A stretch of DNA of 54,167 bases from Metasolibacillus sp. (GTDB lineage Bacteria > Bacillota > Bacilli > Bacillales_A > Planococcaceae). Every line of letters starts with the position of its first letter. Positions within the stretch are counted from its first letter, which is position 1. The stretch is taken from the NCBI RefSeq assembly GCF_025291715.1, contig NZ_JAMBIZ010000026.1, forward strand, positions 1 through 54,167, given 5' to 3'. The translations under genes and the position numbers were made by a program. The notes under the pieces are model-generated. The model ran no database searches. It saw nothing but the letters and a program-made list of their open reading frames with translations, and was not told the DNA's origin. This document shows positions 109 to 25,698 of the stretch, piece by piece.

Positions 109-423
109 ATGAACGAATTAATCAAACAAGTAGAACAATGGTCAATCAACAAAGGATTGGATAAGGCAGAATCTAGTAAACAATTTTTGAAAGTGGTAGA
201 GGAAGTTGGTGAGGTAGCTGCTGCGTTAGCTCGTAATGACATGGAAGCTTTACAAGATGGCATCGGGGATGTAGTAGTGACACTTATTATATTAGCTCAG
301 CAACATGAAATGTATTTGCATGAATGCTTACAATGCGCCTATGACGAAATTAAAGGACGCACAGGGAAAATGGTTGATGGTGTATTCATTAAATCTAGTG
401 ACTTATCTGTGGAGGGCAAATAA
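109..423 (+). CDS. MazG-like nucleotide pyrophosphohydrolase
   Basis: This 104-residue protein looks like a single-domain member of the all-alpha MazG/NTP pyrophosphohydrolase superfamily. It has the paired acidic motif of the Mg-binding site: EEVGE near residues 31-35 and D50/D54 in the following helix. The family cleaves (d)NTPs to monophosphates and PPi, and phages use such enzymes to shape the nucleotide pool. The start follows a GAGGAAAAG ribosome site. Its stop overlaps the start of thyX (TAATG), so the two are probably coupled in a nucleotide-metabolism pair. Its last codons carry the first copy of the prophage's 11-bp word, which also supplies the GGAGG for thyX. The substrate cannot be read from sequence. 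Confidence 0.85.
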   Translation: MNELIKQVEQWSINKGLDKAESSKQFLKVVEEVGEVAAALARNDMEALQDGIGDVVVTLIILAQQHEMYLHECLQCAYDEIKGRTGKMVDGVFIKSSDLSVEGK

Positions 424-1175
424 TGAATATTACGTTATTAGCGCATACAAAATTGTCAACAGATATGTACCTGAAATTATCAGAAAACAATTTTATTACA
501 TTAGTAGGAAATAACATCGTTGACGGGCAGGTAGTGGCATTAGCCGCTATCCGCCAATGTTACTCACATAAAACAGCCTTAGAAGTGCTTGAAACTGAAT
601 CAGAAAAGTATTTTGGTGATAAAGGCAAAGAAGGCAAACGTTTATTTGACCATATTATGAAATCAAAGCACACGTCGACAATGGAACATATCCATTTTAC
701 TTTCGCTGCGGAAGGCGTATCGCGTGCCTTACTTGCTCAATTAACACGCCATCGACAATTATCATTCAGTGTGCAATCTCAACGTTATAACAAGTTTAGT
801 AGCGATTCGCGTTCGGGTGGGTTTGATTATGTAACACCAAAAACAATTGAAGAATCAGGTAAGGTTGTATATGACGAACGACATAACACAGGTGGTGCTA
901 TCCAAACTTTTTATAAGCAATGCATGAGTGATATTCAAAAGATGTATGACCAAATGATAGAGTTTGGAATACCACAGGAAGATGCGCGTTCAGTATTACC
1001 GAATGCTACTGCTTGTAATCTGGTTGTCAGTGGCAACTTGCGAGCATGGCTTGAATTTTATAGTAAGCGCAAAAAGGGTAATGGTGCGCAGGTTGAAATT
1101 GCAGAATTTGCAGAGGGAATCAAAAACGCAATTATCGAAGTTGAACCATGGACAAGTGATTATTTTGAGGGGTGA
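423..1175 (+). CDS. thyX: Flavin-dependent thymidylate synthase ThyX
   Basis: Makes dTMP from dUMP with methylenetetrahydrofolate and NADPH through FAD. The signature RHRx7SxR is present as RHR at residues 109-111 followed by S119 and R121, and the upstream HTSTMEH segment (residues 83-89) matches the flavin-binding region. At 250 residues the length is normal for the family. It lies directly behind the MazG-like gene, so together they probably favour thymidine synthesis during phage replication. The ribosome site GGAGG at 411-415 belongs to the repeated 11-bp word. A ThyX in a host likely to have its own thymidylate synthase is a common phage acquisition. Confidence 0.95.
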   Translation: MNITLLAHTKLSTDMYLKLSENNFITLVGNNIVDGQVVALAAIRQCYSHKTALEVLETESEKYFGDKGKEGKRLFDHIMKSKHTSTMEHIHFTFAAEGVSRALLAQLTRHRQLSFSVQSQRYNKFSSDSRSGGFDYVTPKTIEESGKVVYDERHNTGGAIQTFYKQCMSDIQKMYDQMIEFGIPQEDARSVLPNATACNLVVSGNLRAWLEFYSKRKKGNGAQVEIAEFAEGIKNAIIEVEPWTSDYFEG

Positions 1176-1180
1176 GGTAA

Positions 1181-1789
1181 ATGCCTAATCGTCAAAAACG
1201 TATGGAAATATTAGACCGTATTAATACACTTTTAAAATTATGCGATTGTATGTCGGCGATTGAATATGCAAAATGCGAAGTATGTAAAGAGTTACAAAAA
1301 TGCGGATTGGAATTACTTTCGCTTACTAAAGAGAAAACAAAAACGACATTTACGAAAGATAAAATTATTACAAAATCATTTGTGGTAACTAAAAGTGACT
1401 ATATCGAGTTTTTACGAAAAGGAAGGACAAGGAAATCATTAGCCATTGAATTTAATACAACAATTGAAAAATTGCGCACGTGGGAAAGGAAGAATGGAAT
1501 TAAAAACCTACAATCCTACAGAAATAATCTTGATGTACCAAATTTTTTGAGATTAAAAGCACAAAAATTAACAGATAAGAAAATTGCCAAAATGTATAAC
1601 ATTCCATTGTATGAAGTTTTAAATATAAAAAAAGCTTGTGGTTACAATGAACGCAAACAGGCGCATATCACAATTGAACAATACAAAACATATCAAGATG
1701 AAAAAATGTCTGATAAGGCGATTGCGAAAAAGCATGGAATTAGTGTTGCTACACTTTGGCGATGGAAAAAAGAAAATCTAGTGAGGTAA
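1181..1789 (+). CDS. Phage protein with Cys motif and repeated helix-turn-helix segments
   Basis: This 202-residue basic protein starts with a cysteine-rich segment (C22, C24, then a CxxC and another Cys before residue 41), which looks like a small zinc-binding knob. It is followed by three similar helix-turn-helix-like units near residues 65-100, 105-145 and 150-200. Each has the pattern of a short helix, an AIAKKHGIS-type turn and a WRWKKEN-type recognition helix. This suggests sequence-specific DNA binding. It sits between thyX and the RinA-like regulator, where phages keep middle/late control genes. A regulatory role is inference and the target is unknown. Confidence 0.65.
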   Translation: MPNRQKRMEILDRINTLLKLCDCMSAIEYAKCEVCKELQKCGLELLSLTKEKTKTTFTKDKIITKSFVVTKSDYIEFLRKGRTRKSLAIEFNTTIEKLRTWERKNGIKNLQSYRNNLDVPNFLRLKAQKLTDKKIAKMYNIPLYEVLNIKKACGYNERKQAHITIEQYKTYQDEKMSDKAIAKKHGISVATLWRWKKENLVR

Positions 1790-1793
1790 TAGC

Positions 1794-2213
1794 ATGAGCA
1801 AATTATCGACAGTACAAAATAAAGCAATTGAAGAATATTGGCTCAATATTGACCAATATCGCAAGGACTTAAAATTTCGTGAATGGGAACTGCTCGAAAA
1901 TAAAAAGCAAGATGAAAATATCGGTGGGGGAAAGTCAAATAGAATCAGTGATACGACAGCTAATAAAGCTATGATTCTTACAAATGACGAGCGCTACCAA
2001 CATCTAAAAAAGATTATTCAAGCTGTGGAAGGCACATATCACAGCCTTGACGATGACCAAAAAACAATAGTCCATATGCGTTATTGGGATAAGGGTAACA
2101 ACTGTTATGAGTGGTCGCACGTAGCAGACGAACTATATATGAGTGTGCAACGTGTACTACGCAAACGCAATGCATTGATTGACGAAACAGCTAAAAGATT
2201 GGGGTGGGTGTGA
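1794..2213 (+). CDS. RinA/ArpU-type late transcription regulator
   Basis: This 139-residue protein matches the ArpU/RinA class of late-operon activators found just before the terminase genes of many Gram-positive prophages. The C-terminal half (from about residue 85) reads like a sigma-70 region-4 helix-turn-helix: a DDDQKTIVHMRYWDK helix, a turn at WSHVADELYMS and a basic recognition helix VQRVLRKRN. The N-terminal half is charged and helical. The stop overlaps the next start (TGATG). Its job is probably to switch on the packaging and structural genes that begin beyond the terminator at 2519. That target is inferred from position, not from a visible site. Confidence 0.75.
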   Translation: MSKLSTVQNKAIEEYWLNIDQYRKDLKFREWELLENKKQDENIGGGKSNRISDTTANKAMILTNDERYQHLKKIIQAVEGTYHSLDDDQKTIVHMRYWDKGNNCYEWSHVADELYMSVQRVLRKRNALIDETAKRLGWV

Positions 2214-2434
2214 TGAATATCTTTCGAGCAATTGAAGAAAAGCAAAAATTATATTATAAATTGCAAAAAGAATTACAGATTTTAATTGGAGAAGCAGACG
2301 GCACAACAGTACGTTACAAAAATAAACGAGGTATTTTGAAAAGAATTTATACAGACAGTACAGCAGATGTTATATTTGAAGATGAAAATGGAGAACAATA
2401 CGAGCAGATGGTGAAATTATCAGATTTATATTGA
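2213..2434 (+). CDS. Small phage protein, function unknown
   Basis: A 73-residue charged protein beginning MNIFRAIEEKQ. I chose the ATG at 2213, which overlaps the upstream stop and sits behind GGGGTGGGTG, over the in-frame GTG at 2204. The C-terminal half, with alternating residues around VRYKNKRGILKRIYTDSTADVIF, looks like a small beta fold, possibly SH3-like. It is the last gene before a terminator. No family is recognised. Confidence 0.6.
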   Translation: MNIFRAIEEKQKLYYKLQKELQILIGEADGTTVRYKNKRGILKRIYTDSTADVIFEDENGEQYEQMVKLSDLY

Positions 2435-2518
2435 TAACAATATAAAATCGTAATTGTGCCAACTAGCGAATTACGCAAAAAAACAATGTAAATTGATAAC
2501 ATCGAATAATTTATACAA

Positions 2519-2547
2519 AGTCGTGAGCGATTGCTTGCGGCTTTTTA
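2519..2547 (+). terminator. Rho-independent terminator before the packaging module
   Basis: A 10-bp stem (AGTCGTGAGC with GCTTGCGGCT, including G-U pairs) with loop GATT is followed by TTTTTATT. It separates the early/middle genes from the packaging genes and so marks a plausible control point for late transcription. Confidence 0.75.
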
Positions 2548-2583
2548 TTATGCAATTAACTATGAATTGTGGAGGGCAAAACG

Positions 2584-2736
2584 ATGATTAAACCAATATT
2601 AAAACGAATGTTAGGAATTAAAAGTCCATCAGCTTACTTCGCACAATCAGACATTGAAAGCGACAGAATTGTAAGGTCATGGACAGCGAAAGAAAGACCA
2701 CCAGCAAATATTAAACTACCATTTGCTAAAAATTAA
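2584..2736 (+). CDS. Small basic phage protein, unknown
   Basis: A 50-residue frame beginning MIKPILKRMLGIKSPSAYF. Its strong ribosome site GGAGG at 2571-2575 is part of a copy of the repeated 11-bp word. The protein is basic at its N-terminus, with a short hydrophobic helix and a proline-containing tail. It lies between a terminator and the HNH gene, where many phages carry tiny late genes. No homology is recognised; coding is supported by the ribosome site and tight packing (10 bases to the next start). Confidence 0.55.
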   Translation: MIKPILKRMLGIKSPSAYFAQSDIESDRIVRSWTAKERPPANIKLPFAKN

Positions 2737-2745
2737 GGAGGGGTA

Positions 2746-2946
2746 ATGATGTTTGAAATACCTAGAACACTTGTTGTCCGACACATCATAAATGCTTTCG
2801 ATGAACGTATAGCACGAACTGAGATGGCGTTGTCTATATGCAAACACACTAAGCGCAGACATCAATTGAATAAATTTCTAACAGCAATACAGAAAGCAAG
2901 AGAACGATACAACAATGAATTGATTGAGCTTGAAGGTGATACTTAA
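2746..2946 (+). CDS. Small helical phage protein, unknown
   Basis: A 66-residue, highly charged, probably all-helical protein with many Arg and Glu residues. It follows AAGGAGGGG. Either the ATG at 2746 or the one at 2749 could start it, and the second has better spacing. The stop overlaps the ATG of the HNH gene (TAATG), so the two are coupled. The position suggests a late or packaging-associated role, which is inference only. Confidence 0.55.
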   Translation: MMFEIPRTLVVRHIINAFDERIARTEMALSICKHTKRRHQLNKFLTAIQKARERYNNELIELEGDT

Positions 2947-3245
2947 TGCAATACAAAACAAAGCAAGAACAAATTGCATTTTATAAATCATCCGCTTGGC
3001 AATCATTACGATTGGAAGCACTCGAACGAGATAACCATGAATGTGTATGGTGTGCCGAGGAAGGCAAAGTTACAACTAAACATGACGCTGTACTGGAAGT
3101 TGACCACATAAAGGAAATAGAACATCATCCAGAGCTTGCACTTGAATTAGATAACCTACGAACACTATGCAAGCCATGTCATAACAAGCGACATAACAGG
3201 TTTGATGGCAAAAAAAATAAATGGTTTGATGATGAAAAGTGGTAA
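2946..3245 (+). CDS. HNH endonuclease of the packaging module
   Basis: This 99-residue protein has a complete HNH/zinc architecture: C33xxC36, the metal-site D53-H54 in LEVDHI, N70, then C75xxC78-H79 and H83. In many cos-type phages (for example HK97) a small HNH protein encoded next to the terminase stimulates specific cleavage at cos. Its position immediately before terS fits that role exactly. Catalytic residues look intact. A selfish homing nuclease is the alternative, but the fixed place beside terS and the small size favour the packaging role. Confidence 0.85.
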   Translation: MQYKTKQEQIAFYKSSAWQSLRLEALERDNHECVWCAEEGKVTTKHDAVLEVDHIKEIEHHPELALELDNLRTLCKPCHNKRHNRFDGKKNKWFDDEKW

Positions 3246-3261
3246 AAAGTAAAAATATAAT

Positions 3262-3330
3262 ACCCCCCATTCGTAGGATGAGCGACTTTTGAAACCCTAC
3301 GGACCGGGGAGGCAGTCGTTTGTCTAAAAA
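3262..3330 (+). other. Candidate cos (packaging) site
   Basis: The gap between the HNH gene and terS holds a GC-rich, non-coding stretch with a C6 tract at 3263-3268 and, about 35 bases on, GGACCGGGGAGG, in otherwise AT-rich DNA. Phages with an HNH-TerS-TerL cluster commonly carry cos here. No overhang position can be assigned by eye, so this is a candidate only. Confidence 0.4.
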
Positions 3331-3371
3331 TAAATCCTAAAAATATCACATTTGGAGGGAGGAGGGTATAT

Positions 3372-3698
3372 GTGGAAAAAGGTATAAAGAAAATTGAAAA
3401 AGATTTATTAGCACGTCACGCTGATGACCCAATAAAATTATCGAAAGTCCATCGCTATATAAGATTTTTAAAGATTGATTTAAGTTGCGACACTGATATT
3501 GATAAAGATGGAACGACTATAAGGATTGAAAACGGTACGCAAAACTTTTTGAAACAGCATCCAGCGATTGCGACAAAGTTATCAATTTCCAAAGAGATTG
3601 AAAAATTAGAAGATGCACTCGGAATAAAAATTGAAAGTGAGCCTGCTGCCACTGCCCCCTCAACTGTGGAGGACAAAGGTAGGACGAGCTTAATTTGA
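3372..3698 (+). CDS. terS: Terminase small subunit, P27 family
   Basis: This 108-residue protein lies directly before the large terminase and has the look of the P27-family small subunit: a basic helical N-terminus (KGIKKIEKDLLARH), a central helical region and a coiled segment near KEIEKLEDALGIKIE. TerS binds phage DNA and recruits TerL to start packaging. GTG at 3372 is the start, behind GGAGGGAGGAGGG; the ATG two bases earlier is out of frame and stops quickly. The C-terminal tail PSTVEDKG is encoded by a copy of the prophage's repeated word, apparently placed in a dispensable end. The stop overlaps the TTG start of terL. Confidence 0.8.
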   Translation: MEKGIKKIEKDLLARHADDPIKLSKVHRYIRFLKIDLSCDTDIDKDGTTIRIENGTQNFLKQHPAIATKLSISKEIEKLEDALGIKIESEPAATAPSTVEDKGRTSLI

Positions 3699-5407
3699 TT
3701 AGTCATAAGTACATTGATGAATATATTAAGCTATGGCGTGACGGCAAAATAATTTTAAATAAACGGCGTATTAAATTAATTGAGTTGATAGAGCGTGATA
3801 TTTTAACAGCGAATGATATGTATTTTGATAATGAACAAATCGAAAACTATATTACATTTACTGAAAAGTATTACTTCACACTCACGTTGACACAAAAATT
3901 TAAGACGTGTTTTATTTTTTTATATTATAATGATGGCTCTTTGGTGTTTGATGAACATTTGGACTATGAAGGACGTGGCGGCGGTAAAACGGGGCGTATA
4001 TCGACATTAGCAAATTACTTTATCAGCGATTTACACGGCATTGATAATTATAATGTATCAGTCGTAGCAAATAGTGAAAAGCAAGCGAAAATGTCGTTTA
4101 CAGAGGTCTACAACACCATTGATAAAGACGACACGTTGAAAGAGCATTTTGTTAATAAAAAAGCATTAATTGAATCACGTAGCACGAAATCAGTATTTCA
4201 ATATCATACTTCCAACGCATCAACGAAAGATGGTTTGCGTGATGGCTGTGTAATTTTTGAGGAAATTCACCAATATGAAAACTCATCCACTGTAAACGTA
4301 TTTACATCGGGGCTTGGTAAAGTGCCGAATCCTCGGATATTTTATGTTGGCTCGGATGGCTATGTACGTGAAGGGTTTTCAGACAAATTAATTGAGCGAG
4401 CAGATAATATTTTAGATGGCCATGTCAGCATACGCGATGATGGTCTTTTTGCGTTTATGTGTAATTTAGATGATGAAGCAGAAATGCATAATTCTGAAAT
4501 GTGGCAAAAGGCAAATTCGCAATTTCACCCGCCATTAACGACATATGCAAAAACGTTGTTTAAAACGGTTATGAAGCAATATAACAAGTTGGAACATGAC
4601 CCCGATGGCTATGAGGAATTTATAACAAAGCGTATGAATTTACCGAAAGTTGACTTAGAAAAATCAGTGACAAGTTGGGAGAAAATCAAGGCTACAGACC
4701 AAGCTTACAATTTGGATGAATTGAAAAAACGCGAATGTATTGGCTGCTTAGACTATGCTGCTGTTCGAGATTTTGTTGCAATGGGATTGTTATTTTTAAA
4801 GAGTGACAATTTTATCGTGCCAAAGGAATTAACACACTCATACGTATGTAAACCATTTGCAGACAAACATTACGCTTATAGTAAGAAGAAAGCTGAAAAC
4901 AACAATAAGAAGGACCATCGAAAATTTGCTCCAATTCGCGAATGGGAAAACGATGGTCTTTTAAGTGTCCTGGACATTGAAACTATGGACCCGCATTTAG
5001 TTGTCAAGTGGTTTGTTGATAGGCGCGATGAAGGCTGGAACATTAAAAAAATCATCGGTGATAACTTCAAAATGGATATTCTCAAACCGTTGTTCGAAGC
5101 GGCGGACTTTGAAGTTGAAGTTATACGAAATCCTGATGCGGCAAGCGGATTGTTAGCACCAAGAATTGAAATTGCTTTTGAAAACGAGCAAGTAATATTC
5201 GGGAACAATCCACTAATGCGTTGGTACACGAATAACGTGCTTGTTAAGCGGCTACCTAACGGAAATAAGGTATATCGCAAAAAAGAGGAAACAAAACGTA
5301 AAACAGATGGTTTTATGATGTTTTTATACGGCGTGTGGGGTTCGCGCGATTTAGAGGACACCGATGTGGACGGCGTACTTGATTTCTTAGACAGCATCAC
5401 ATTTTAG
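3695..5407 (+). CDS. terL: Terminase large subunit (ATPase-nuclease)
   Basis: The 570-residue motor that pumps DNA into the prohead and cuts it. The ATPase domain has Walker A GRGGGKTG (residues 93-100) and Walker B CVIFEE (185-190). The C-terminal RNase H-like nuclease begins at GCLDYAAVRDF, with D353 as the likely first metal ligand. TTG at 3695 overlaps the terS stop, indicating coupling. The length is normal for HK97-type TerL. With the portal, ClpP-like protease and HK97-fold capsid that follow, it makes a standard packaging/head cluster. Confidence 0.93.
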   Translation: MISHKYIDEYIKLWRDGKIILNKRRIKLIELIERDILTANDMYFDNEQIENYITFTEKYYFTLTLTQKFKTCFIFLYYNDGSLVFDEHLDYEGRGGGKTGRISTLANYFISDLHGIDNYNVSVVANSEKQAKMSFTEVYNTIDKDDTLKEHFVNKKALIESRSTKSVFQYHTSNASTKDGLRDGCVIFEEIHQYENSSTVNVFTSGLGKVPNPRIFYVGSDGYVREGFSDKLIERADNILDGHVSIRDDGLFAFMCNLDDEAEMHNSEMWQKANSQFHPPLTTYAKTLFKTVMKQYNKLEHDPDGYEEFITKRMNLPKVDLEKSVTSWEKIKATDQAYNLDELKKRECIGCLDYAAVRDFVAMGLLFLKSDNFIVPKELTHSYVCKPFADKHYAYSKKKAENNNKKDHRKFAPIREWENDGLLSVLDIETMDPHLVVKWFVDRRDEGWNIKKIIGDNFKMDILKPLFEAADFEVEVIRNPDAASGLLAPRIEIAFENEQVIFGNNPLMRWYTNNVLVKRLPNGNKVYRKKEETKRKTDGFMMFLYGVWGSRDLEDTDVDGVLDFLDSITF

Positions 5408-5422
5408 TAAAGGGGGTGAGGT

Positions 5423-6580
5423 ATTGGGGTAATTTTAGATGCTATTTTTCGCAATAGAGAAATCGGAAAAGAAGCTGCTGAAATGTGGGATTTTGATATT
5501 TTCGGTATTGACATTGAACAGCGTGCTTATTTAAAGAAAACAGCAATTGAAACATGTATCAATTTTATAGGGCGAACCATTTCTTTGGCTGAATTTCGTT
5601 TTACTAAAGATGGAAAAAAAGCTAAAAGCGATTGGGACTACTTACTTAATGTGCGTCCGAATACAGACCAAAGCGCAGCGGATTTTTGGCAAGATTTTGT
5701 TTATAAATTATTGCATGAAAATGAAGTGCTTGTGATTTTGAGTGACAATAATGACTTGCTAATTGCCGATAGTTTTAATCGTGTGGAGTACGCTGTATAT
5801 CCTGACATTTTTAAAAATGTTGTTGTAAAAGGATATGAGTTTAAAAAATCATTTGAAATGAGCGAAGTTATTCATATTTCATACAATAACGAAAAATTCA
5901 CACGCTTTTTAGATGGCATGTTTAAAGATTACACTGAATTATTTAGCCGAATGATTGAAACGAATATGTATGCAAATCAAATCCGTGCGATTGCTGGTGT
6001 TGATGGAAATACATCATTGGATGATAAAAAGCGAAATCAATTAGAAGGCTTTATTGATAAAATGTTTAATGCTTTCCGAAAAAAAGCATTTGCAATCGTT
6101 CCACAAATTAAAGGTTTCAATTATGAGGAAATTACAAAAGGTGTAAAAAATGAAGGTCGCTCGGTAGAAGAATTAGGGAAGCTTAAAAAGGATTTGACAA
6201 GCCATGTAGCAAATATTTTAGGCATTCCAGCAACTTTAATACATGGTGACATGGCAGAATACGAAACGGCTGTAAAAGCTTATATCAAGTTTTGTATCGA
6301 GCCATTGATTAAAAAAATTAGGGATGAGCTTAACGCAAAATTAATCGACCGTGACGACTACATGAACGGCGAGCGAATCGGTATACATGGCGTGACTGAA
6401 TTAAGTCCATTGGAGCTTGCTACAGCGATTGACAAGCTTGTTGCTAGTATGGTGTACACGCCGAATGAAGTACGTGTAATGTTAGGTGATGAGCCATCCA
6501 CAGATGAGCGATTGAACAAGCATTACTTTACAAAAAACTATCAAGAATTAGATTCCGTTGAAGGAGGTGAGAAAGAATAA
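5423..6580 (+). CDS. Phage portal protein, possible AUU start
   Basis: HK97-family portal, the dodecameric channel at the capsid vertex through which DNA enters and leaves. The first ATG in frame (5483) would remove the usual N-terminal segment. The frame is open from 5420 and reads ATT-GGG-GTA at 5423, giving a (M)GVILDAIFRNREIG start as in family members, with AGGGGGTGA six bases upstream. I therefore extend it to an ATT initiator (385 residues). A sequencing error or use of 5483 (365 residues) are the alternatives. The stop overlaps the start of the protease gene (TAATG). Confidence 0.88.
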   Translation: MGVILDAIFRNREIGKEAAEMWDFDIFGIDIEQRAYLKKTAIETCINFIGRTISLAEFRFTKDGKKAKSDWDYLLNVRPNTDQSAADFWQDFVYKLLHENEVLVILSDNNDLLIADSFNRVEYAVYPDIFKNVVVKGYEFKKSFEMSEVIHISYNNEKFTRFLDGMFKDYTELFSRMIETNMYANQIRAIAGVDGNTSLDDKKRNQLEGFIDKMFNAFRKKAFAIVPQIKGFNYEEITKGVKNEGRSVEELGKLKKDLTSHVANILGIPATLIHGDMAEYETAVKAYIKFCIEPLIKKIRDELNAKLIDRDDYMNGERIGIHGVTELSPLELATAIDKLVASMVYTPNEVRVMLGDEPSTDERLNKHYFTKNYQELDSVEGGEKE

Positions 6581-7284
6581 TGAAGCATAAAATCAAAGGC
6601 GACATAACTTCATGGAATGGCACAATTTACGATTTTAATTACAAAATGCGCAATATTAAAGAGGACGAGGATATTACACTCGAAATCAATTCATACGGTG
6701 GCGATGTCTTTATGGGAATTGACATCATGAATACATTGCGAGCGCATAAAGGCACGGTAACAGTTATTATTACAGGTATTGCGGCGAGCGCAGCATCAAT
6801 CATAGCGATGGGTGCCGATGTAGTAAAAATGTATTCCAATACTCAATTAATGGTACATCATGCTTGGACTTATGCGGCAGGCAATGCAAAAAAATTGCGT
6901 AAAATTGCTGACGATTTAGAGAGCATTGGCGAATCGGTTTTAGCGTCATATACACATCGTGTAGAAGAAGAAACAGTGAAACAACTGCTCGATGAAGAAA
7001 AATATATGTCAGCAAAAACCGCTAAGGAATATGGCTTTATTGATGAAATTATTGACGGCAAGGCAGAGGAAGTTGAATCGGAAATTTTCTCGAATAAAGC
7101 ACAAGAATTTAATAATGCGCTCGCTACCACTTCTTCAACTGTGGAGGGCAACGAGGAATTAATGCAAGAGATTAATAACTTGAAATCGCAAGTTACAAGC
7201 TTACAAACACAATTAAATCAATCAAAAGAAGAACCTGTTGAACAGCCGAAAGTAGCGGCTAAACGTAAAGGGTTCTTTTTTTAA
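6580..7284 (+). CDS. ClpP-like prohead maturation protease
   Basis: This 234-residue protein belongs to the S14 (ClpP-like) prohead proteases, which process capsid or scaffold and are then lost. The catalytic serine is S70 in GIAASAAS and the histidine is in MVHHA (H93). The protease domain ends near residue 165. A charged linker follows, containing the repeated word (SSTVEGN), and then a coiled coil of NNLKSQVTSLQTQLNQ type to residue 220, probably a scaffold-like extension. It sits between portal and capsid as in other HK97-type phages. Confidence 0.9.
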   Translation: MKHKIKGDITSWNGTIYDFNYKMRNIKEDEDITLEINSYGGDVFMGIDIMNTLRAHKGTVTVIITGIAASAASIIAMGADVVKMYSNTQLMVHHAWTYAAGNAKKLRKIADDLESIGESVLASYTHRVEEETVKQLLDEEKYMSAKTAKEYGFIDEIIDGKAEEVESEIFSNKAQEFNNALATTSSTVEGNEELMQEINNLKSQVTSLQTQLNQSKEEPVEQPKVAAKRKGFFF

Positions 7285-7309
7285 TACTTAAAATCGGAGG
7301 TAATCATTA

Positions 7310-8470: not shown

Positions 8471-8491
8471 TTTTGGGTGTTAGGCGTTTTT
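8457..8491 (+). terminator. Terminator after the capsid gene
   Basis: CGCCAACACC pairs with GGTGTTAGGCG across an A/T loop and is followed by TTTTT. The stem starts inside the last capsid codons. Probably a partial terminator that sets the capsid to connector ratio. Confidence 0.75.
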
Positions 8492-8514
8492 AATTTGAAA
8501 GGAGGTAATAGATA

Positions 8515-16507: not shown

Positions 16508-16523
16508 GAAAGGAGTTTGAAGC

Positions 16524-18088: not shown

Positions 18089-18141
18089 TGTTCCGTTTTT
18101 TATTACAAAAAATATTAATAAAACTAATAGGAGATGATTTT

Positions 18142-18294: not shown

Positions 18295-18344
18295 TCCAAT
18301 TATGTGTAGTAAACAAATTAACAACTTAATATCAAATATTTATC

Positions 18345-18380
18345 AGCCTTCTACATTGGTATTGTGGGAGGCTATTTCAT
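18345..18380 (+). terminator. Terminator with repeat-derived stem
   Basis: AGCCTTCTACA pairs along its length with TGTGGGAGGCT (two G-U pairs, loop TTGGTAT), followed by ATTTCATTT. The arms are diverged versions of the prophage's 11-bp word facing each other, as in the terminators at 20327 and 23608. The T-run is weak. Confidence 0.6.
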
Positions 18381-18398
18381 TTGAAGGGCGGTGATAAA

Positions 18399-20108: not shown

Positions 20109-20124
20109 AAGGAGCATGAGAAAC

Positions 20125-20313
20125 GTGGATTATCAAGTACAGCTAAACAATGGGCAGGTAATTAATTTAACAAATGCAGAGTTTGACGCTGATGTTTTTA
20201 CAGCGACATTAAATAATCAAAGTATAACTTTTGTCAATATTGGCGGAGCAATCATCAACAAGCATATTATTGTTAGTGTGCTGCCAACAACAGCAACGCA
20301 GTCAAATGACTAG
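20125..20313 (+). CDS. Small phage protein between Tal and holin, unknown
   Basis: A 62-65-residue beta-rich protein (VDYQVQLNNGQVINLTNAE, then NQSITFVNIGGAIINKHIIVSV). AAGGAG at 20109-20114 is too close to the ATG at 20116, so GTG at 20125 is the better start. It is followed by a terminator that closes the structural operon. No family recognised. Confidence 0.55.
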   Translation: MDYQVQLNNGQVINLTNAEFDADVFTATLNNQSITFVNIGGAIINKHIIVSVLPTTATQSND

Positions 20314-20326
20314 CGTTATTTTTATT

Positions 20327-20362
20327 GCCTTCCACAACTATTCTGTGGAGGGCTTTTATTAT
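20327..20362 (+). terminator. Terminator built from two facing 11-bp repeat copies
   Basis: GCCTTCCACAA at 20327 and CTGTGGAGGGC at 20343 form a stem with a small loop, followed by TTTTATTATT. The right arm is an exact copy of the prophage's repeated word and the left arm is a close inverted copy. It separates the structural from the lysis genes. Confidence 0.8.
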
Positions 20363-20390
20363 TAAAAATACAAATTGAAGGGTGAGGTTT

Positions 20391-20783
20391 ATGGATATGA
20401 TTGAGTATTTGCAACGTTTTTTGGAATCTGATGATACAAAACTAATCTATATTTTAGCGCTTATTTTAAGTGCAAATTTAATAGATTTTACAATTGGCTG
20501 GCTTAATGCCAAGTTTAATAAAAAAGTAGATTTTAGCAGCGCTAAAGCGATATTCGGAATTGCTCGCAAGCTTATTTTATTTATCGTACTTGTATATGCA
20601 ATTCCAGTGGCTTTATTAATGCCTGAGCCGTTGGGGATTAGTGCATTATATGTGTTATACATCGGTTACTTATTAAGTGAGATTAATTCGATTTTAAATC
20701 ATTTCAAGTTAGCTGATGACGATAAAAGCATGGACCCATTTATTGAGTTTTTCAAAGGTTTAATGCGTAAGGGGGATAAATAA
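20391..20783 (+). CDS. Phage holin
   Basis: A 130-residue membrane protein with three or so transmembrane segments: residues about 15-37 (IYILALILSANLIDFTIGWL), 52-75 (AKAIFGIARKLILFIVLVY) and 80-105. It ends in a charged tail (DDDKSMDPF, MRKGDK), like toxin-secretion/phage-lysis holins of the phi LC3/Cp-1 type. It forms the membrane lesion that lets the amidase reach the wall. ATG at 20391 follows GAAGGGTGAGG. Its stop overlaps the amidase ATG (TAATG), a classic holin-endolysin pair. Confidence 0.85.
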   Translation: MDMIEYLQRFLESDDTKLIYILALILSANLIDFTIGWLNAKFNKKVDFSSAKAIFGIARKLILFIVLVYAIPVALLMPEPLGISALYVLYIGYLLSEINSILNHFKLADDDKSMDPFIEFFKGLMRKGDK

Positions 20784-21532
20784 TGATTACAATTTCACCT
20801 GGTCACTGGACAGTCGGAACAGGCGCAAGGGACATTATAGACGAGGTAACAGAGGCTCGTAAAGTCGCGAAGCGTGTAGTAGCTATATTGCGTGAGGGCG
20901 GTGTGCAAGCTAATTACATTGAGGATAATGTTTCAAAAAATCAACAGCAAAATTTAACGTATCTAGTTAATGAGCATAAAAAAACTTCTCGCAAGCTCGA
21001 TGTGAGTGTGCATTTTAACGCATCTACTGGACGTCAACAGCGAGCAATCGGCACAGAGGTGTTATACAAAGGTGGAGCGTTAAAAGCCCTGTCAAGCAAG
21101 CTTAGCGGCGTCATGGCTAATGCTATGGACGTTCCCAATCGCGGTGCTAAATATCGTGATAATCTTTATTTTTTAAATAGCCTTCCACAGTCCATTTTAT
21201 TGGAAGTTTGTTTTGTGAATAGCGTAAGCGATGTAGTTGGATATAACGAACATTTTGAAGCGTTATGCCAAGCAATTGCAACGGAATTAGCATTACATGT
21301 TGGTGTAAAATTAAATGAAAAGAAGGTGCGTACAATGGAATTTAGTAGTCCAGCATTAAAAAATGAAACAGAAACTACACTAGCAAGCGCAGCACGCAGG
21401 AAGATGATTGTTGAAGCCGCTATTGAAGCAGGAGCAAATAAAGAAGTGTGGATGGCAAAACTAGAAAATAAAACAATTACAAATGATGATTTATTAGGTT
21501 TAGCAGCTAAAGCGATTGTTGACAGTAAATAA
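20783..21532 (+). CDS. Endolysin: N-acetylmuramoyl-L-alanine amidase (Amidase_3)
   Basis: The 249-residue lytic enzyme cuts the bond between MurNAc and L-Ala. The catalytic domain (1-175) has the zinc ligands of the amidase_3 family: H8 in SPGHW, the glutamate in DEVTEA (E21 or E24) and H77 in SVHFNA, plus the catalytic E141 in LLEVCFV. A short linker (KLNEKKVRT) leads to a C-terminal helical domain (185-249) that is presumably wall-binding. An in-frame ATG at codon 185 has its own ribosome site (see 21321), so the binding domain may also be made alone. There is no signal peptide, consistent with holin-dependent release. Confidence 0.9.
   Translation: MITISPGHWTVGTGARDIIDEVTEARKVAKRVVAILREGGVQANYIEDNVSKNQQQNLTYLVNEHKKTSRKLDVSVHFNASTGRQQRAIGTEVLYKGGALKALSSKLSGVMANAMDVPNRGAKYRDNLYFLNSLPQSILLEVCFVNSVSDVVGYNEHFEALCQAIATELALHVGVKLNEKKVRTMEFSSPALKNETETTLASAARRKMIVEAAIEAGANKEVWMAKLENKTITNDDLLGLAAKAIVDSK
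21321..21337 (+). promoter_or_regulatory. Internal ribosome site and start in the endolysin gene
   Basis: AGAAGGTG at 21321-21328 lies six bases before an in-frame ATG at 21335, exactly at the domain boundary. Translation from here would yield a 65-residue C-terminal domain beginning MEFSSPALK. Known precedents (clostridial CD27L/CTP1L, enterococcal Lys170) make such a domain to assemble with the full enzyme. Confidence 0.5.
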
Positions 21533-21539
21533 ATTTAAA

Positions 21540-21578
21540 CCCGCCTTTCCGTTGTGGAGGGCGGGGTTATTTGTTTTT
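21540..21578 (+). terminator. Terminator after the lysis genes
   Basis: CCCGCCTTTCC pairs with GGAGGGCGGG around GTTGT and is followed by TTATTTGTTTTTT. The right arm includes the repeated word (TTGTGGAGGGC at 21552). It lies between convergent genes and may serve both strands. Confidence 0.8.
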
Positions 21579-21595
21579 TAAGTCTATTTATTAAA

Positions 21596-21802
21596 TCAAT
21601 TTTTCGATATTTGTTCCATAAACTCTGTAGATAGTATCCACGTTTTAGAGGATAAACGAATAAGACCTTCTGAAACCCAACCGTCGATTTTCTCTTGACC
21701 AACAACAGAAGGCTTGAATTTATTTTTTAATGTTTGTGGATTTATATTATACCGTTCGGCAGCTTCAACAATCGTCATAAAATCATTTATTGTCTTTGTC
21801 AT
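21596..21802 (-). CDS. Small helix-turn-helix DNA-binding protein
   Basis: A 68-residue protein with a helix-turn-helix of the excisionase/MerR-like or antitoxin-like kind near residues 8-33 (MTIVEAAERYNINPQTLKNKF), then a VSEGLIRLSSKTWILS segment. It overlaps the upstream homing-repeat gene by four bases, so it is the last gene of a three-gene reverse-strand operon. It could autoregulate that operon through the twin palindromes at 23447 and 23469; that is inference. Confidence 0.65.
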   Translation of the reverse strand: MTKTINDFMTIVEAAERYNINPQTLKNKFKPSVVGQEKIDGWVSEGLIRLSSKTWILSTEFMEQISKN

Positions 21803-22932
21803 TTTGCTTTTCCTCCATTTTTTTCATGAATTTCATTCCAAACATCTTCCATATTAGTTTTATTAAACTTGCGGAAAATTGTTGTAACAGGATACTCGCT
21901 AAGGTTTTCTAATTCTTTATATGTCACTTTTCCAAATTTCTTATAAATACGTTTTAACTCCTCTTCGACTTCCTTTTTTGTTATTAAAGACAGTCGCGTT
22001 TTTTTGATTTTTGGAACATTTGCCAAATCTCTCAAACGATTCATCGTACCAAAGCGTACTATGAAAACATCGGAATTATAAATATCTGATGAATGGTCTA
22101 AGTCGTCAGTTGTTGGAATACGCCCGATTTTTTTATAAAAATCATGATAAAGTTCCAGCAATTCTTCGTTATTATGAACCACCGTAGTAGGTGTGAGAAA
22201 CGGTGGATCTATATTTAATTCTTTACACATATTTGTGTAATTTTTAAAATATTTTTTGCAACAAGAATAAAAAAAGGAATGGTTTTTGATTAAATAAGTC
22301 GAAGATGGTATAGTTTCTAATTTGTTTATTTCTGTTAGAAACCATTCGACAAAATCTTCTTTAGAAAGATATTTCTTATTTGCTTTCAGGTTAAGTGATT
22401 CTAATAATTCAGACCAATTACACCTGAACCGTGATAGTATATAGCGCGAAGCTGGAAATCCTTTTTTTCTTTTTTTATCAAATGTACGTAAATGATTGGA
22501 CTTAATTCGATTTAGTTCTTTCGAAATTTCGTCTAAAAAGGCTTCATCATCCATTTTTAGATACTGTTTATCAACCAAACGTATTTGATTTACACTGTAT
22601 CCTAAAGATTCCGCATATTTCAGGTACGAAAACCCAAAGTAAGACTTGAAATTCTCGTAAGAAAAAAGTGTATTGTCACTTAATATTTCTTGTCTTGTAA
22701 ATGGACGACCATTAAGTGCAATTTGTTCATCTATCAATTTAATAATTTCTTCTTTTGTCCAATTTTTGCGGGTGGGTTTAAACCCCGCGAGTTCAATAGC
22801 ATTATTCCAAGAACCAAACCGCTTTGAAATTGCTTGGTTCTCTCTGATGTCCCTTTTTCTTGGGATTTTCCCATAAATTCTGTGGTATTCTCTTATTTTA
22901 TTCAATAAATCCTCGTTAGTATATTTGTACAT
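21799..22932 (-). CDS. Protein of six homing-endonuclease-associated DNA-binding repeats
   Basis: About 378 residues consisting of roughly six units of 55-60 residues. Each has the pattern of the homing-endonuclease-associated repeat, clearest in the first (TNEDLLNKIREYHRIYGKIPRKRD...FGSWNNAIELAGF), the second (WTKEEIIKLIDEQ...GRPFTRQE) and the fifth (NEELLELYHDFYKKIGRIPTTDDL). Such repeats bind DNA in HNH or LAGLIDADG homing nucleases. No HNH, GIY-YIG or LAGLIDADG catalytic motif is visible. The start is ATG at 22932 behind AGGTGA, not the longer frame to 23109, which would overlap the upstream gene. Strand, AT-richness and position mark it as prophage cargo. Confidence 0.7.
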   Translation of the reverse strand: MYKYTNEDLLNKIREYHRIYGKIPRKRDIRENQAISKRFGSWNNAIELAGFKPTRKNWTKEEIIKLIDEQIALNGRPFTRQEILSDNTLFSYENFKSYFGFSYLKYAESLGYSVNQIRLVDKQYLKMDDEAFLDEISKELNRIKSNHLRTFDKKRKKGFPASRYILSRFRCNWSELLESLNLKANKKYLSKEDFVEWFLTEINKLETIPSSTYLIKNHSFFYSCCKKYFKNYTNMCKELNIDPPFLTPTTVVHNNEELLELYHDFYKKIGRIPTTDDLDHSSDIYNSDVFIVRFGTMNRLRDLANVPKIKKTRLSLITKKEVEEELKRIYKKFGKVTYKELENLSEYPVTTIFRKFNKTNMEDVWNEIHEKNGGKAK

Positions 22933-22945
22933 ATATTTCACCTGC

Positions 22946-23407
22946 CTATATCTGTGTTGGTAAGTGTTTTTGTATAATAGAGAATATTTCTTCTGCATTT
23001 TCCTTGATATATTCTTTTCCGAATGACGCTTCTGTTTGCATATCATCTTCCCATCGTTGTTCAATTTCTCTCCATTTGACATAAAGTTCCTTCGCGTCAA
23101 ATTGAACAATAGTTTTGTGGCAAATAGCTAAATCTTCTCCATTCATTCCTGAACTATTCAACATTTCGCCTTCGAAAATAGTTACTTGTATATTGCAACG
23201 TTCGATATCATTTACGTTAAGTGACGCATAATTAATCCAATAATCATATAAATCAGCCATCGCCTCTAGTCTATATAATTCTTTAAGAGAGTAACAACTA
23301 ACACCCTCTTCCCAAAAACCTTCTTCTGCAACCCCTTGAATACTAGAACGGTGGTCAGCACCTCTCCAATGCCCATCCATATCCAATCTTATAAATAATT
23401 CTTGCAT
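22946..23407 (-). CDS. Unknown acidic protein, first gene of the cargo operon
   Basis: A 153-residue acidic protein, MQELFIRLDMDGHWRGADHRSS..., with no recognised motif. It has mixed strands at the N-terminus and a long charged helical C-terminus (LYVKWREIEQRWEDDM, KEYIKENAEEIFSIIQKHL). It is cytoplasmic by composition. GGAGGAAATTATT precedes the ATG, and a near-consensus promoter with two palindromic operators lies upstream. It is co-transcribed with the homing-repeat and helix-turn-helix genes. An immunity or host-modifying role would fit a regulated cargo operon but is not shown. Confidence 0.65.
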   Translation of the reverse strand: MQELFIRLDMDGHWRGADHRSSIQGVAEEGFWEEGVSCYSLKELYRLEAMADLYDYWINYASLNVNDIERCNIQVTIFEGEMLNSSGMNGEDLAICHKTIVQFDAKELYVKWREIEQRWEDDMQTEASFGKEYIKENAEEIFSIIQKHLPTQI

Positions 23408-23439
23408 AAATAATTTCCTCCTGTCACCCTTTGTTAATT

Positions 23440-23484
23440 CTATTATAACCTATATAGGTTAATTTGTAAACCTTTTTAGGTTAA
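23440..23484 (-). promoter_or_regulatory. Promoter with two palindromic operators
   Basis: On the reverse strand, -35 TTTACA (23465-23470), a 17-base spacer and a perfect -10 TATAAT (23442-23447). Two palindromes of the form AACCTnnnnAGGTT overlap it, at 23447-23460 (AACCTATATAGGTT, a perfect palindrome) and 23469-23482. Their centres are 22 bases apart, two helical turns, so a repressor could bind both on one face and block the polymerase. Confidence 0.8.
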
Positions 23485-23574
23485 TATTTTTAAATTAAAA
23501 TTATATATGTTGAATAACCTGTGAATACATAAATTACCTGTCATTAAATAAGAGTGTTCGTTCTGTGATTAAAA

Positions 23575-23631
23575 TAAAAAAGCCACTCATTGAGTGACCT
23601 TTGGTGTGCCTTCCACAGACTATTGTGGGGG
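23575..23631 (-). terminator. Tandem hairpins ending the lipoprotein gene
   Basis: Reading the reverse strand, GCCCCCACA/TGTGGAAGGC forms a first hairpin from facing repeat copies (23608 and 23623). A second stem GTCACTCA/TGAGTGGC is followed by TTTTTTATTTT, a standard terminator. Confidence 0.75.
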
Positions 23632-24201
23632 CTACTCTGTATATAAATTGCTTTCTAATTCTTTAAAAGCCGCTACAGCTTTTTGTACAAATTCATCTGA
23701 CCATTGAATTTTCTCATTCATTTCATTTAACTTCGCTGAGCTATTTGTTTCTAAAACTTCCATAGCAATTTTGGCAGCTTCTTGACGGTTTACAGAAGCA
23801 TAACTTAAATTTTCAGCAACCTCTTTGGCTAACTTTTTATTTTCTTTACTTAATTGTTTTACTGGAACATCATCATCCATACTCATTTCACGGTAAATGT
23901 CATGTACTTTTTGTATTTGAGTATATGCATCTTGTGTAGATATATCATTTTTCTCTGCACGGTCCATTACAATAACCCAAATATTATTCCAAGTAGAATC
24001 GAATTTTTTTACGTATTCATCAATGAAAATCTTTGTTTCGGCTTCATAATAAGTCAATTCTTTATTTTCTTTTGGTTTCTCTTCCTTTGCTACTTCCTCA
24101 ACTTCTTCCTTGTCCTCTACAGATTTTTGTACCTCTTCCTGATCATCGCCACAAGCGCCTAATAATAAAGCTAACGAGCTAATTAAAAATAATTTTTTCA
24201 T
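23632..24201 (-). CDS. Prophage-encoded lipoprotein, possible exclusion factor
   Basis: A 189-residue lipoprotein: MKKLF, a hydrophobic run and lipobox LLGAC with the lipidated cysteine at about residue 17. An acidic, low-complexity linker follows (EEVQKSVEDKEEVEEVAKEEKPKENKE split by no domain) and then a mostly helical domain of about 140 residues with no recognised fold. I use ATG at 24201, behind AAAGGAG, rather than TTG at 24210. It sits as a separate unit with its own terminator in the cargo region. Lipoproteins in this position (for example Ltp of phage TP-J34) can block DNA entry of other phages; that role here is a hypothesis. Confidence 0.7.
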   Translation of the reverse strand: MKKLFLISSLALLLGACGDDQEEVQKSVEDKEEVEEVAKEEKPKENKELTYYEAETKIFIDEYVKKFDSTWNNIWVIVMDRAEKNDISTQDAYTQIQKVHDIYREMSMDDDVPVKQLSKENKKLAKEVAENLSYASVNRQEAAKIAMEVLETNSSAKLNEMNEKIQWSDEFVQKAVAAFKELESNLYTE

Positions 24202-24219
24202 TATATGCAACTCCTTTCA

Positions 24220-24237
24220 ATTACCATTTTAGGTAAT
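24220..24237 (-). promoter_or_regulatory. Inverted repeat in the lipoprotein leader
   Basis: ATTACC-6-GGTAAT, a perfect 6-6-6 inverted repeat directly upstream of the lipoprotein ribosome site. It could be an operator or a small RNA hairpin masking initiation. No regulator is assigned. Confidence 0.35.
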
Positions 24238-24260
24238 ACATAAAGAAAAGTACATAACAA

Positions 24261-24293
24261 AAAACAGACAACTTTAAATTAGTTATCTGTTTT
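24261..24293 (-). terminator. Terminator overlapping the end of the XRE gene
   Basis: On the reverse strand AAACAGATAACT pairs with AGTTGTCTGTTT and T6 follows. The left arm is within the last codons of the upstream gene. Confidence 0.7.
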
Positions 24294-24501
24294 TTACATG
24301 ACCATTATCTTTTGCTATGAAATTAATTTCTAATTTAACTCCTAGCTCCTCTGTAATTTTCTCCAAGTCAGCAACGCTATAAGTTCCGTTTTTCATTTTC
24401 AAAGACAAATTAGATTGTGACATACCGATTTTTTCGGCAAGCTGTGTAGCTGTCATGTTTCTATCTACAAGTAATTTTTTTATTTCTTTTGTTAAATCCA
24501 T
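24283..24501 (-). CDS. XRE/Cro-type repressor
   Basis: A 72-residue single-domain helix-turn-helix protein. MTATQLAEKIGMSQSNLSLKMKN carries the classic Xre/Cro turn near residues 18-42, followed by YSVADLEKITEELGVKLEINFI. It has no CI-type C-terminal domain. I use ATG at 24501, nine bases from AAGGAG; the ATG at 24510 abuts the ribosome site. It is transcribed away from the small gene at 24627, with a palindrome-rich region between them, as expected for a local two-way switch rather than the main phage repressor. Confidence 0.8.
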   Translation of the reverse strand: MDLTKEIKKLLVDRNMTATQLAEKIGMSQSNLSLKMKNGTYSVADLEKITEELGVKLEINFIAKDNGHVKNR

Positions 24502-24549
24502 TTTTATCATCTCCTTAAATAGATAGTAATATAAATTATTAATTTAATC

Positions 24550-24609
24550 AATAATTTATTTGACAAATTAATTAAATAGATATATTATTTGTTTAACAAA
24601 TAAATTATT
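24550..24609 (+). promoter_or_regulatory. Rightward promoter inside a 13-bp inverted repeat
   Basis: TTGACA (24560-24565), a 17-base spacer and TATTAT (24583-24588) form a strong promoter. AATAATTTATTTG (24550-24562) and its exact reverse complement CAAATAAATTATT (24597-24609) flank it, overlapping both the -35 and the start region. This is a likely operator for the divergent XRE protein. Confidence 0.7.
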
Positions 24610-24626
24610 AAAGGGAGCTGGAAAAT

Positions 24627-24797
24627 ATGAAACGTTCAGAAAAAATTGCAAAGTTACAGCGTATTGTTGATAAATATACAGCGCAATTGGAATCAAAAGA
24701 AAATGGTCGTTTCGGTCGTACTGTACGATTGTTGGGACTGACACTAGCAATAGCGGATTTACAAATGGAATTGTTCGCATACGGTGAGGATGAATAA
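24627..24797 (+). CDS. Small basic helical protein, unknown
   Basis: A 56-residue frame, MKRSEKIAKLQRIVDKY..., with AAGGGAG nine bases before the ATG. It is amphipathic and helical throughout with an acidic end (YGEDE). It is the first gene from the promoter at 24560, with the winged-helix gene 37 bases downstream. Function unknown; a partner of the next protein is possible. Confidence 0.6.
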   Translation: MKRSEKIAKLQRIVDKYTAQLESKENGRFGRTVRLLGLTLAIADLQMELFAYGEDE

Positions 24798-24834
24798 ATA
24801 ATTATTTTTAATGTAGGAAAGTGAGGTGAGAACA

Positions 24835-25698
24835 ATGGCAGTGTTTGATTATTTAGAGCAATATGCAACATTTCAATCTGTGGAGGACATGGACAAGTCT
24901 GTGGAGGGCCACATGGCAGAACATTACTTTAATCTAACGGAAAGCGAACGTGCCATTGTTTTCATGCTCGCTAGCCGTTCTTTAGCTTATCCTGGAGCGT
25001 GCCACCTTAAAGCTGATACGATTGCTACTAAATTAAATATTAGCGCTAAAACGGTGTATAGAGCAGTTAAAAAATTAAATGAGCTAGGCATCATTAAAAA
25101 GGTAACAACAATTCGCGATAAAAATGGCGGTCAAGGCGCTAATGTATATGTAATTTTACCTTATGTCCCACCGCAAATGTCCGAGCGTGAGAATGCTAAT
25201 ACAAGCGATAATAACGCAGTTTGTGAGCCTTCCACAGAAAATCAACCATCTATTTCTTTTAATCTTAAAAATAATTTATTAAATAATACGTATGCTACGC
25301 AGGCGTCCGCTCAAAAATCTGTGGACGACAATAAGCCTTTAAAGACAAAAGAGCAAACACCATATCAGCAACTTAAATCATTAGTTATGAGCGTGCTTGG
25401 TGATAGTAAATTAGCAAGTAAAATGTATGGTATCTATTTAGCGCAAAATAAAAACGCTATTATACCAACTTCATTTGAAAATGTGATTGAAGCAGCCAAA
25501 CACACGCTAAACGCATATAAACGCAAATACAATAGCGCCAATCCTGTGGACAGCATAACAGGGTACTTTAATAATACTTTGCGTAATATCGCTTGTAAGG
25601 CATCGGAAATGGCTTGTAAGGAGCTTTTGAATAGTAGTTGGTTGGATAGTTTGGACAAGGCTTACGAGGACCACGAAATGAGTTATTATGAGTTGTAA
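24835..25698 (+). CDS. Winged-helix, replication-initiator-like phage protein
   Basis: A 287-residue protein with a clear winged helix-turn-helix at about residues 40-105 (LTESERAIVFMLASR, LKADTIATKLNISAKTVYRAVKKL, GIIKKV, then a wing GGQGANVYVIL). A low-complexity linker with Asn/Ser runs over residues about 120-180, and a helical C-terminal domain (QLKSLVMSVLG, FENVIEAAKHTLNAYKRKYN, GYFNNTLRNIACKAS) resembles the ends of phage/plasmid replication or DnaD-like proteins. Five copies of the repeated word lie inside the gene (24878, 24899, 25227, 25319, 25544). It is the last prophage gene before the attachment tRNA. ATG at 24835 follows GTGAGGTGAG. The exact function is unproven. Confidence 0.6.
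   Translation: MAVFDYLEQYATFQSVEDMDKSVEGHMAEHYFNLTESERAIVFMLASRSLAYPGACHLKADTIATKLNISAKTVYRAVKKLNELGIIKKVTTIRDKNGGQGANVYVILPYVPPQMSERENANTSDNNAVCEPSTENQPSISFNLKNNLLNNTYATQASAQKSVDDNKPLKTKEQTPYQQLKSLVMSVLGDSKLASKMYGIYLAQNKNAIIPTSFENVIEAAKHTLNAYKRKYNSANPVDSITGYFNNTLRNIACKASEMACKELLNSSWLDSLDKAYEDHEMSYYEL

Follow-up and report, generated by a model that had tools for sequence, protein, structure and literature searches.

Prophage Locus and Form of the Word

The window analyzed here is a contig of 54,167 nt from Metasolibacillus sp. (NZ_JAMBIZ010000026.1, here C18), the left part of which is the late half of a temperate prophage. The 38.7 kb prophage is split over two contigs, C18 and C5. Its early half (C5:1-12900, L013) carries genes for a PrimPol-helicase, an ERCC4 nuclease, CI, and an integrase. 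Scattered through both halves is a short DNA word, TGTGGANGRC, which is the subject of this report. The PrimPol-helicase gene lies at C5:2283-4637 and encodes a helix-bundle domain of the NrS-1 type (PF22763, E 9e-28); the nearest solved chains of the PrimPol are 7ola (E 2e-52) and, from NrS-1, 6k9a (E 1e-37). The module to which it belongs also includes a DUF669 protein, a Sak4-like AAA protein and the ERCC4 nuclease. Just downstream of the PrimPol gene lies g1558 (C5:1558-1983), which encodes a 141-aa protein of PHROG 9698, a family of unknown function; its confidently predicted fold combines helices with a short hairpin (mean pLDDT 92.8).

An earlier note on the window had described the 11-mer CTGTGGAGGGC as occurring in eight exact and ten single-mismatch copies, with no exact copy in the host DNA to the right. 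All eight exact copies were recovered, at positions 407-24,909. The excess of single-mismatch copies was confirmed as well, although we count 11 rather than ten in the first 25.6 kb. The 19 copies with at most one mismatch compare with 0.22 expected from dinucleotide shuffles of the window, and the 35 copies with at most two mismatches compare with 4.2. Thirty-two of the latter lie before position 25,555; the three in the host part each carry two mismatches, and the host part is indeed free of exact copies. Genome-wide (3.83 Mb draft) the exact 11-mer is found 12 times: eight times in the window, three times at C5:390-7129, in the prophage's other half, and once at C55:186324. The same string read backwards has no copy in the 3.83 Mb.

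Letter frequencies in 47 contexts from the prophage and 412 from relatives, aligned with TGTGGANG held fixed, define the consensus as (Y)TGTGGANGRC, in which the seventh letter is free. The prophage holds 44 copies of TGTGGANGRC over both strands, 29 of them in the window and 15 on C5. There is no enrichment in the host chromosome: of 69 occurrences of TGTGGANGGC in the whole genome, 35 fall in the 38.7 kb prophage and 34 in the other 3.79 Mb. The densities in prophage and host, which the earlier note had allowed might turn out equal, are thus far apart.

Selection on the DNA Word

In the 35.7 kb of listed prophage genes we find 37 coding copies of TGTGGANGRC. The codon-aware control that had been proposed for the word leaves it standing, as synonymous-codon shuffles gave a mean of 2.8 copies (maximum 8 in 300 shuffles) and codon-order shuffles a mean of 0.38 (maximum 3). 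One-mismatch near-words are at host background in the prophage, with an excess of 0.7 beside the 44 perfect copies.

The positions of the word are conserved in relatives. In the late half all 16 copies that could be aligned with G002, which is of the same genus, are retained at 85% identity, with the free letter varying, and 8 of 14 aligned copies are retained in G103 at 77% identity. Where local DNA identity is 80-85%, copies at 184 distinct sites in 17 phages and prophages that share the module are retained in 286 of 348 aligned cases, vs. 6 of 17 cases in eight word-poor relatives; these are non-independent pairs, counted after removal of duplicate entries and with three gene-chosen prophages included. 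In an unbiased search for over-represented gapped words, this word scored 137 in the prophage, 65-72 in each of three relatives and 46 in SDFMU_Pfc; Wrath (31) and Spoks (27) have it in the TGTGGANGA form. For the remaining 14 of the 21 phages searched the best word of any kind scored at most 16.

Taken together, we conclude that the word is under very strong selection as DNA, is strongly conserved, and is phage-wide. The codon shuffles and the conservation in relatives strongly support the earlier suggestion that selection acts on the DNA word and not on the peptide.

Placement, Orientation and Spacing

The copies in the window are listed in Table 1. Listed genes, which make up about 92% of the prophage, contain 37 of its 44 copies. 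Copies in genes had been thought to sit usually in linkers or protein tails; for the tails this was not borne out, as a stop codon is within 50 nt in only six of the 37 coding copies. The coding copies are sense in 26 cases and antisense in 11, a bias no stronger than codons give (2.0:0.55 in the synonymous shuffles). Counting both strands, there is about one copy per kilobase and the largest gap measures 2.2 kb; the coefficient of variation of the spacing is 0.69, vs. 0.97 for random placement. Spacing was also less variable than random in all seven related phages tested, with P<0.05 in two of them.

Table 1. Copies of the word and other features in the window (exact 11-mer, CTGTGGAGGGC).
Feature	Position	Strand	Context
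Late half of temperate prophage	1..25800		right border approximate
Exact 11-mer	407..417	+	end of gene 109-423 (putative MazG-like)
TGTGGAAGGC	2024..2033	+	
TGTGGAGGGC	2568..2577	+	intergenic or at very start of ORF 2569-2736
TGTGGAGGAC	3665..3674	+	end of putative TerS gene; retained in both relatives compared
TGTGGACGGC	5365..5374	+	end of TerL gene; retained in G002, gone in G103
TGTGGATGGC	6493..6502	-	antisense, putative portal gene
Exact 11-mer	7139..7149	+	putative ClpP-type protease gene
Exact 11-mer	8597..8607	+	65-aa gene 8515-8712
TGTGGACGGC	9544..9553	+	
Exact 11-mer	11044..11054	-	antisense, end of gene 10745-11074 (putative tail chaperone)
TGTGGAGGAC	11159..11168	+	
TGTGGACGGC	13369..13378	+	tape-measure-like gene
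TGTGGACGAC	13702..13711	+	tape-measure-like gene
TGTGGACGAC	14483..14492	+	tape-measure-like gene
TGTGGAAGGC	15560..15569	-	antisense, near end of tape-measure-like gene
TGTGGACGGC	15796..15805	+	
Exact 11-mer	16094..16104	-	
Exact 11-mer	16449..16459	+	
TGTGGACGGC	18566..18575	+	
Inverted pair, TGTGGAAGGC on - and exact 11-mer on +	20327..20353		upstream of putative holin gene
TGTGGAAGGC	21180..21189	-	antisense, putative amidase gene
TGTGGATGGC	21447..21456	+	putative amidase gene
TGTGGAGGGC	21553..21562	+	3' part of terminator-like hairpin after putative amidase gene
TGTGGAAGGC	23608..23617	-	
TGTGGAGGAC	24879..24888	+	HTH gene
Exact 11-mer	24899..24909	+	HTH gene
TGTGGAAGGC	25227..25236	-	HTH gene
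TGTGGACGAC	25320..25329	+	HTH gene
tRNA-Arg	25890..25963	-	near prophage right end, beside putative clpP

The inverted pair at 20327-20353 is predicted to form an RNA hairpin resembling an intrinsic terminator (-17.2 kcal/mol), followed by UUUUAUU. We found 30 distinct inverted word pairs in the scanned sets, some of which had been chosen by such pairs. The arms are GCCTTCCACA and TGTGGAGGGC, on either strand and often before T-rich DNA, in 22 of the 30, a share that is biased because one scan had held one arm fixed. A T/G position, giving a U-G wobble, was observed in 22 of the 30 word-built pairs, drawn from the window (20327-20353) and from related phages; with such a wobble only one direction of transcription yields the fully paired, stronger hairpin. 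These terminator-like pairs seem to be a secondary, minority use of the word.

Distribution of the Word and Its Link to a Replication Module

Scans of IMG/VR and of GTDB genomes place the word in phages of Lysinibacillus, Metasolibacillus and relatives. In Sporosarcina, Psychrobacillus, Viridibacillus and Bacillaceae, loci whose PrimPol is 71-77% identical have a looser and sparser form, and in phi105-type phages (PrimPol at about 54%) the word is near background. A search for any scattered word in other PrimPol phages gave none above noise in phi105, A9Y, PSA, B025, A2, SP15-1 and TMW. Nor was a different scattered word, as expected of heteroimmune stoperators, above noise in the four word-poor relatives tested.

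The presence of genes was compared with that of the word in BLAST tables, first for 29 phages and later for 37. Many of these phages had been chosen by the word, and the word counts of G106 and G119 are inflated, as they drew on overlapping pieces. Genes of the early module, including those for the PrimPol-helicase, DUF669 protein, ERCC4 nuclease and g1558, ranked next after a late gene considered below. Because the phages had so often been chosen by the word, we repeated the test on prophages chosen by gene. Among 261 genomes of the host family, 10 had matches to the RepO of SDFMU_Pfc; of 31 matches to the PrimPol, 10 were examined. Counts are given per 40 kb window, including some host DNA, unless a shorter length is stated.

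All five prophages with the same module are rich in the word, with 27, 27 and 22 sites, 8 sites per 15 kb, and 10 sites per 24 kb. Prophages with a full RecT/RepO/DnaB module hold 4 (G190), 0 (G187), 3 (G182), 11 (G242) and 1 (G017) sites, five that share only part of RepO hold 0, 1, 2, 1 and 3, and five with unrelated PrimPols hold 0, 0, 1, 0 and 1. Thus, 14 of the 15 prophages without the module are poor; in the exception, G242, 10 of the 11 copies lie in the late half. An exact permutation test of word counts by module gave P = 6e-5. The genome G187 carries both kinds of prophage, one with RepO and no sites per 40 kb and one with PrimPol and 8 sites per 15 kb. We conclude that in the host family the word is linked to the PrimPol/DUF669/ERCC4 module, and that the other modules sampled are poor in it.

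Phages that have exchanged modules show the same division within one genome. SDFMU_Pfc (L285, OQ884029.1) is a chimera: pieces at 5-15.8 kb are 89-93% identical to the word-poor G125, and 18.3-21.9 kb is 93.8% identical to the PrimPol phage L300. The junction, at about 15.8-18.3 kb, leads from a RecT/RepO/DnaB early part to a late part resembling that of PrimPol phages. There are no sites in the first 19 kb and 19 in the last 22 kb (for TGTGGANGR, 0 vs. 21 in the rest). Among 80 relatives of its terminase, eight are 96-99% identical, and the 72 more distant ones hold 0-3 sites each; three of the eight have a PrimPol visible upstream, with words on both sides. Spoks is divided similarly, with 0 early and 8 late copies of TGTGGANGRC and 3 early and 19 late copies of TGTGGANGR.

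Candidate Readers of the Word

We propose that the word may be a recognition site kept genome-wide for a component of the phage replication module. That its reader is encoded somewhere in this module appears slightly more probable than not. In its most likely form, the word would be a preferred priming or loading site of the PrimPol-helicase, offered roughly once per kilobase, and the terminator-like inverted pairs would be a secondary use. Of the module members that belong to a named family, it is the PrimPol-helicase that has relatives with known recognition of template sequence. As described in PMC8718748 and PMC8076596, the helix-bundle domain of PrimPol relatives reads GTG in the template, and NrS-1 does best with GTGA and GTGG. 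The word contains GTGG, and hence GTG, and the phage encodes a PrimPol with a helix-bundle domain; by analogy with this family, which reads these motifs in single-stranded template, we name the PrimPol-helicase tentatively, at less than even odds, as the reader. The strand bias in five phages, which are not independent, is weak, with 84 plus and 41 minus copies right of the PrimPol gene and 22 of each left of it.

A fuller scenario, doubtful as a whole, is that the PrimPol-helicase replisome reads the word on single strands as a mark of own DNA. A primase with a long word would have shaped the whole genome, and a few copies would have been reused as terminators. After an exchange of modules the new part would be free of the word, which would be expected to fade gradually from the remainder.

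Several observations weigh against the PrimPol-helicase as reader. No scattered word was found in five PrimPol phages from Listeria, lactobacilli and Staphylococcus, and the presence of the word does not co-vary with similarity of the helix bundle (phi105-type, 68%, poor; G217, 53%, rich; G138, 43%, rich). The PrimPol of L338 is close, at 89% to the best reference, yet this locus has 3 sites in 15.8 kb. Five phages without a cognate PrimPol (G138, G146, G126, SDFMU_Pfc and Spoks) retain, outside the replaced part, 50 of 58 aligned copies at 80-85% identity, and as this matches the 286 of 348 in phages with the module, a PrimPol reader requires that the modules were swapped recently. Near-misses are raised in G146 and Spoks, which points to some decay or drift there, and not in SDFMU_Pfc and G126. 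The known helix-bundle motifs have 3-8 nt and the word about nine specified letters; moreover, the 8-nt site of NrS-1 occurs only twice in its genome, according to PMC7102993. Finally, the top gene in two of the association tables is not a replication gene but the head-closure gene at 8977-9336, with counts of 13 of 13 rich and 0 of 12 poor phages, and of 14 of 15 rich against none of 13 poor ones.

Another protein of the early module, such as that of g1558, could be the reader, with the word acting in replication, recombination, repair or genome organization rather than in priming. We consider this unlikely, although g1558 has the best association among the early genes (it is present in 18 of 19 early modules rich in the word, in all nine intermediate ones of Bacillaceae and in 3 of 23 poor ones) and is retained in G138 along with a PrimPol of a different type. 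The protein falls in no Pfam family and matches only an unnamed PHROG, sequence comparison gave no convincing solved relative, and no copy of the gene is detectable in the word-rich G217. The replication module also encodes a 155-aa protein (C5:6831-7298, minus strand) with an AP2-like C-terminus, whose residues 85-154 match PHROG 99 (HNH endonuclease family). It has relatives in several word-rich phages; as a reader it was rejected, as BLAST gave no relative in the rich G103, G124 and G136.

Also unlikely, to our judgment, is a reader outside the module, encoded by a late gene or by the host, with the word serving genome upkeep and foreign modules lacking it only through recent arrival. The words kept elsewhere in the five module-exchanged phages would fit such a reader, as would the separation of rich from poor phages by the head-closure gene and a density that peaks in Lysinibacillus and Metasolibacillus phages and is lower in Bacillaceae ones with a similar PrimPol. 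This has to be set against a host chromosome without enrichment and against RepO-matching prophages of the same family, which are poor in 9 of 10 cases, even within one genome. The two late genes that separate best look structural or also occur in poor phages: the head-closure gene was set aside by judgment, its family being a structural connector, and the 65-aa gene at 8515-8712 is present in poor phages as well.

The earlier note had raised repressor sites of the stoperator type, which would silence the prophage as in mycobacteriophage L5 or as MrpR does at SPBRE in SPbeta. An asymmetric word of about 10 bp in dozens of copies, about 2:1 with transcription, suits this role. It is nevertheless disfavored, and we hold it to be improbable, because the copies lie in genes (37 of 44) and in both orientations with no sense bias beyond that of synonymous shuffles, and because neither CI nor the HTH protein tracks the word. 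The CI family is shared with the word-poor G120, is not found in most rich phages, and was rejected as reader; so were the HTH protein (24826-25698) and a small XRE protein (24283-24510), both of which have relatives in word-poor phages (G140).

Chi-like sites that steer host AddAB or a phage recombinase are a very improbable explanation. Scattered copies on both strands at fairly even spacing, and a module that encodes an ERCC4 nuclease as well as a Sak4-like AAA protein, would agree with them; host DNA is not enriched, however, and the rich G103 and G136 have a different AAA protein in place of this Sak4. A by-product of protein sequence (V-E/D-G linkers) or of chance has next to no probability and is already refuted by the synonymous shuffles; although 22 of the 37 coding copies translate in frame as V-(E/D)-(G/D), antisense and non-coding copies exist and the word persists between relatives while its free letter varies.

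Neighboring Repeats and Genes

Other repeats were seen in the same material. Just downstream of the PrimPol gene (L013:2004-2339) there are CGGGTTACTT and CGTAACCC repeats, distinct from the word, which are perhaps origin iterons. In G106, TGTCGTGTCTCT-like repeats form one local cluster (L104 6787-6907), perhaps an operator or an origin. Host DNA at C5:20001-40000 (L014) holds 14 copies of CGCAAATAA and several of AAACCCGC, perhaps a tandem or dispersed host repeat. In the window, a 436-aa gene at 21596-23109 (minus strand) has, by reading, repeated units resembling homing endonucleases; it adjoins an excisionase-like 68-aa gene (PHROG 2655) and has no BLAST relative among the 28 other phages compared.

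Comparison With Known Systems

We found no published account of the word, and the matches listed for the 11-letter string are non-phage by title. The stoperators of cluster A mycobacteriophages (L5, TipsytheTRex) resemble it in being short, asymmetric, and present in many copies across a temperate phage genome. As described in PMC9283540, stoperators are found within promoters and in the short spaces between genes, their orientation is tied to transcription, and they are read by a two-domain repressor. The word differs in lying mostly in genes in both orientations, and by co-occurrence we found no repressor that tracks it. MrpR is a repressor with a tyrosine-recombinase fold. Its element SPBRE is likewise a repeated element of a temperate phage of the Bacillus group; it is a 15-bp motif with ten prominent MrpR binding peaks in promoter regions (PMC10516654), unlike the 44 copies, mostly in genes, seen here.

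The template motifs of PrimPols with a helix bundle are GTG for pRN1 ORF904, and TTTGGTTA and GTGA/GTGG for NrS-1; the word includes GTGG. Its 44 copies and about nine specified letters set it apart from the 8-nt NrS-1 site with its two occurrences (PMC7102993). Replication iterons are clustered at an origin and the word is spread over the prophage, with other repeats, CGGGTTACTT, beside the primase gene; the iteron role entertained in the earlier note, taken as that of a local origin, does not fit. A relation to the DnaA box had been suggested too. The box is a 9-mer, TTATCCACA, to which the word has no full match: TGTGGA (TCCACA) alone is shared, and the other side of the word reads GYCN.

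With the DNA uptake sequences of Neisseria, which have about 10 nt, occur on average once per 1.15-1.5 kb and form inverted pairs that act as terminators (PMC2397512), the word has in common its length, its density and its predicted terminator-like inverted pairs. It differs in being enriched in the phage only and not in the host chromosome, which also distinguishes it from Chi. An uptake-like tag and a signal in replication or recombination are kept as candidate roles. Chi, KOPS and Noc-binding sites are chromosomal, scattered words for DNA-processing machines, and we know of no system of this type that reads TGTGGANGRC. Words of this kind, short and dispersed along a genome, are often the trace of a machine that handles DNA; the present one is under very strong selection and follows a replication module through mosaic phages. 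If another protein than the PrimPol-helicase reads it, a widespread module would have a new sequence-specific player; if the PrimPol-helicase does, the sites at which priming begins could be tested directly, and the specificity of a primase would be seen to be able to shape an entire phage genome.

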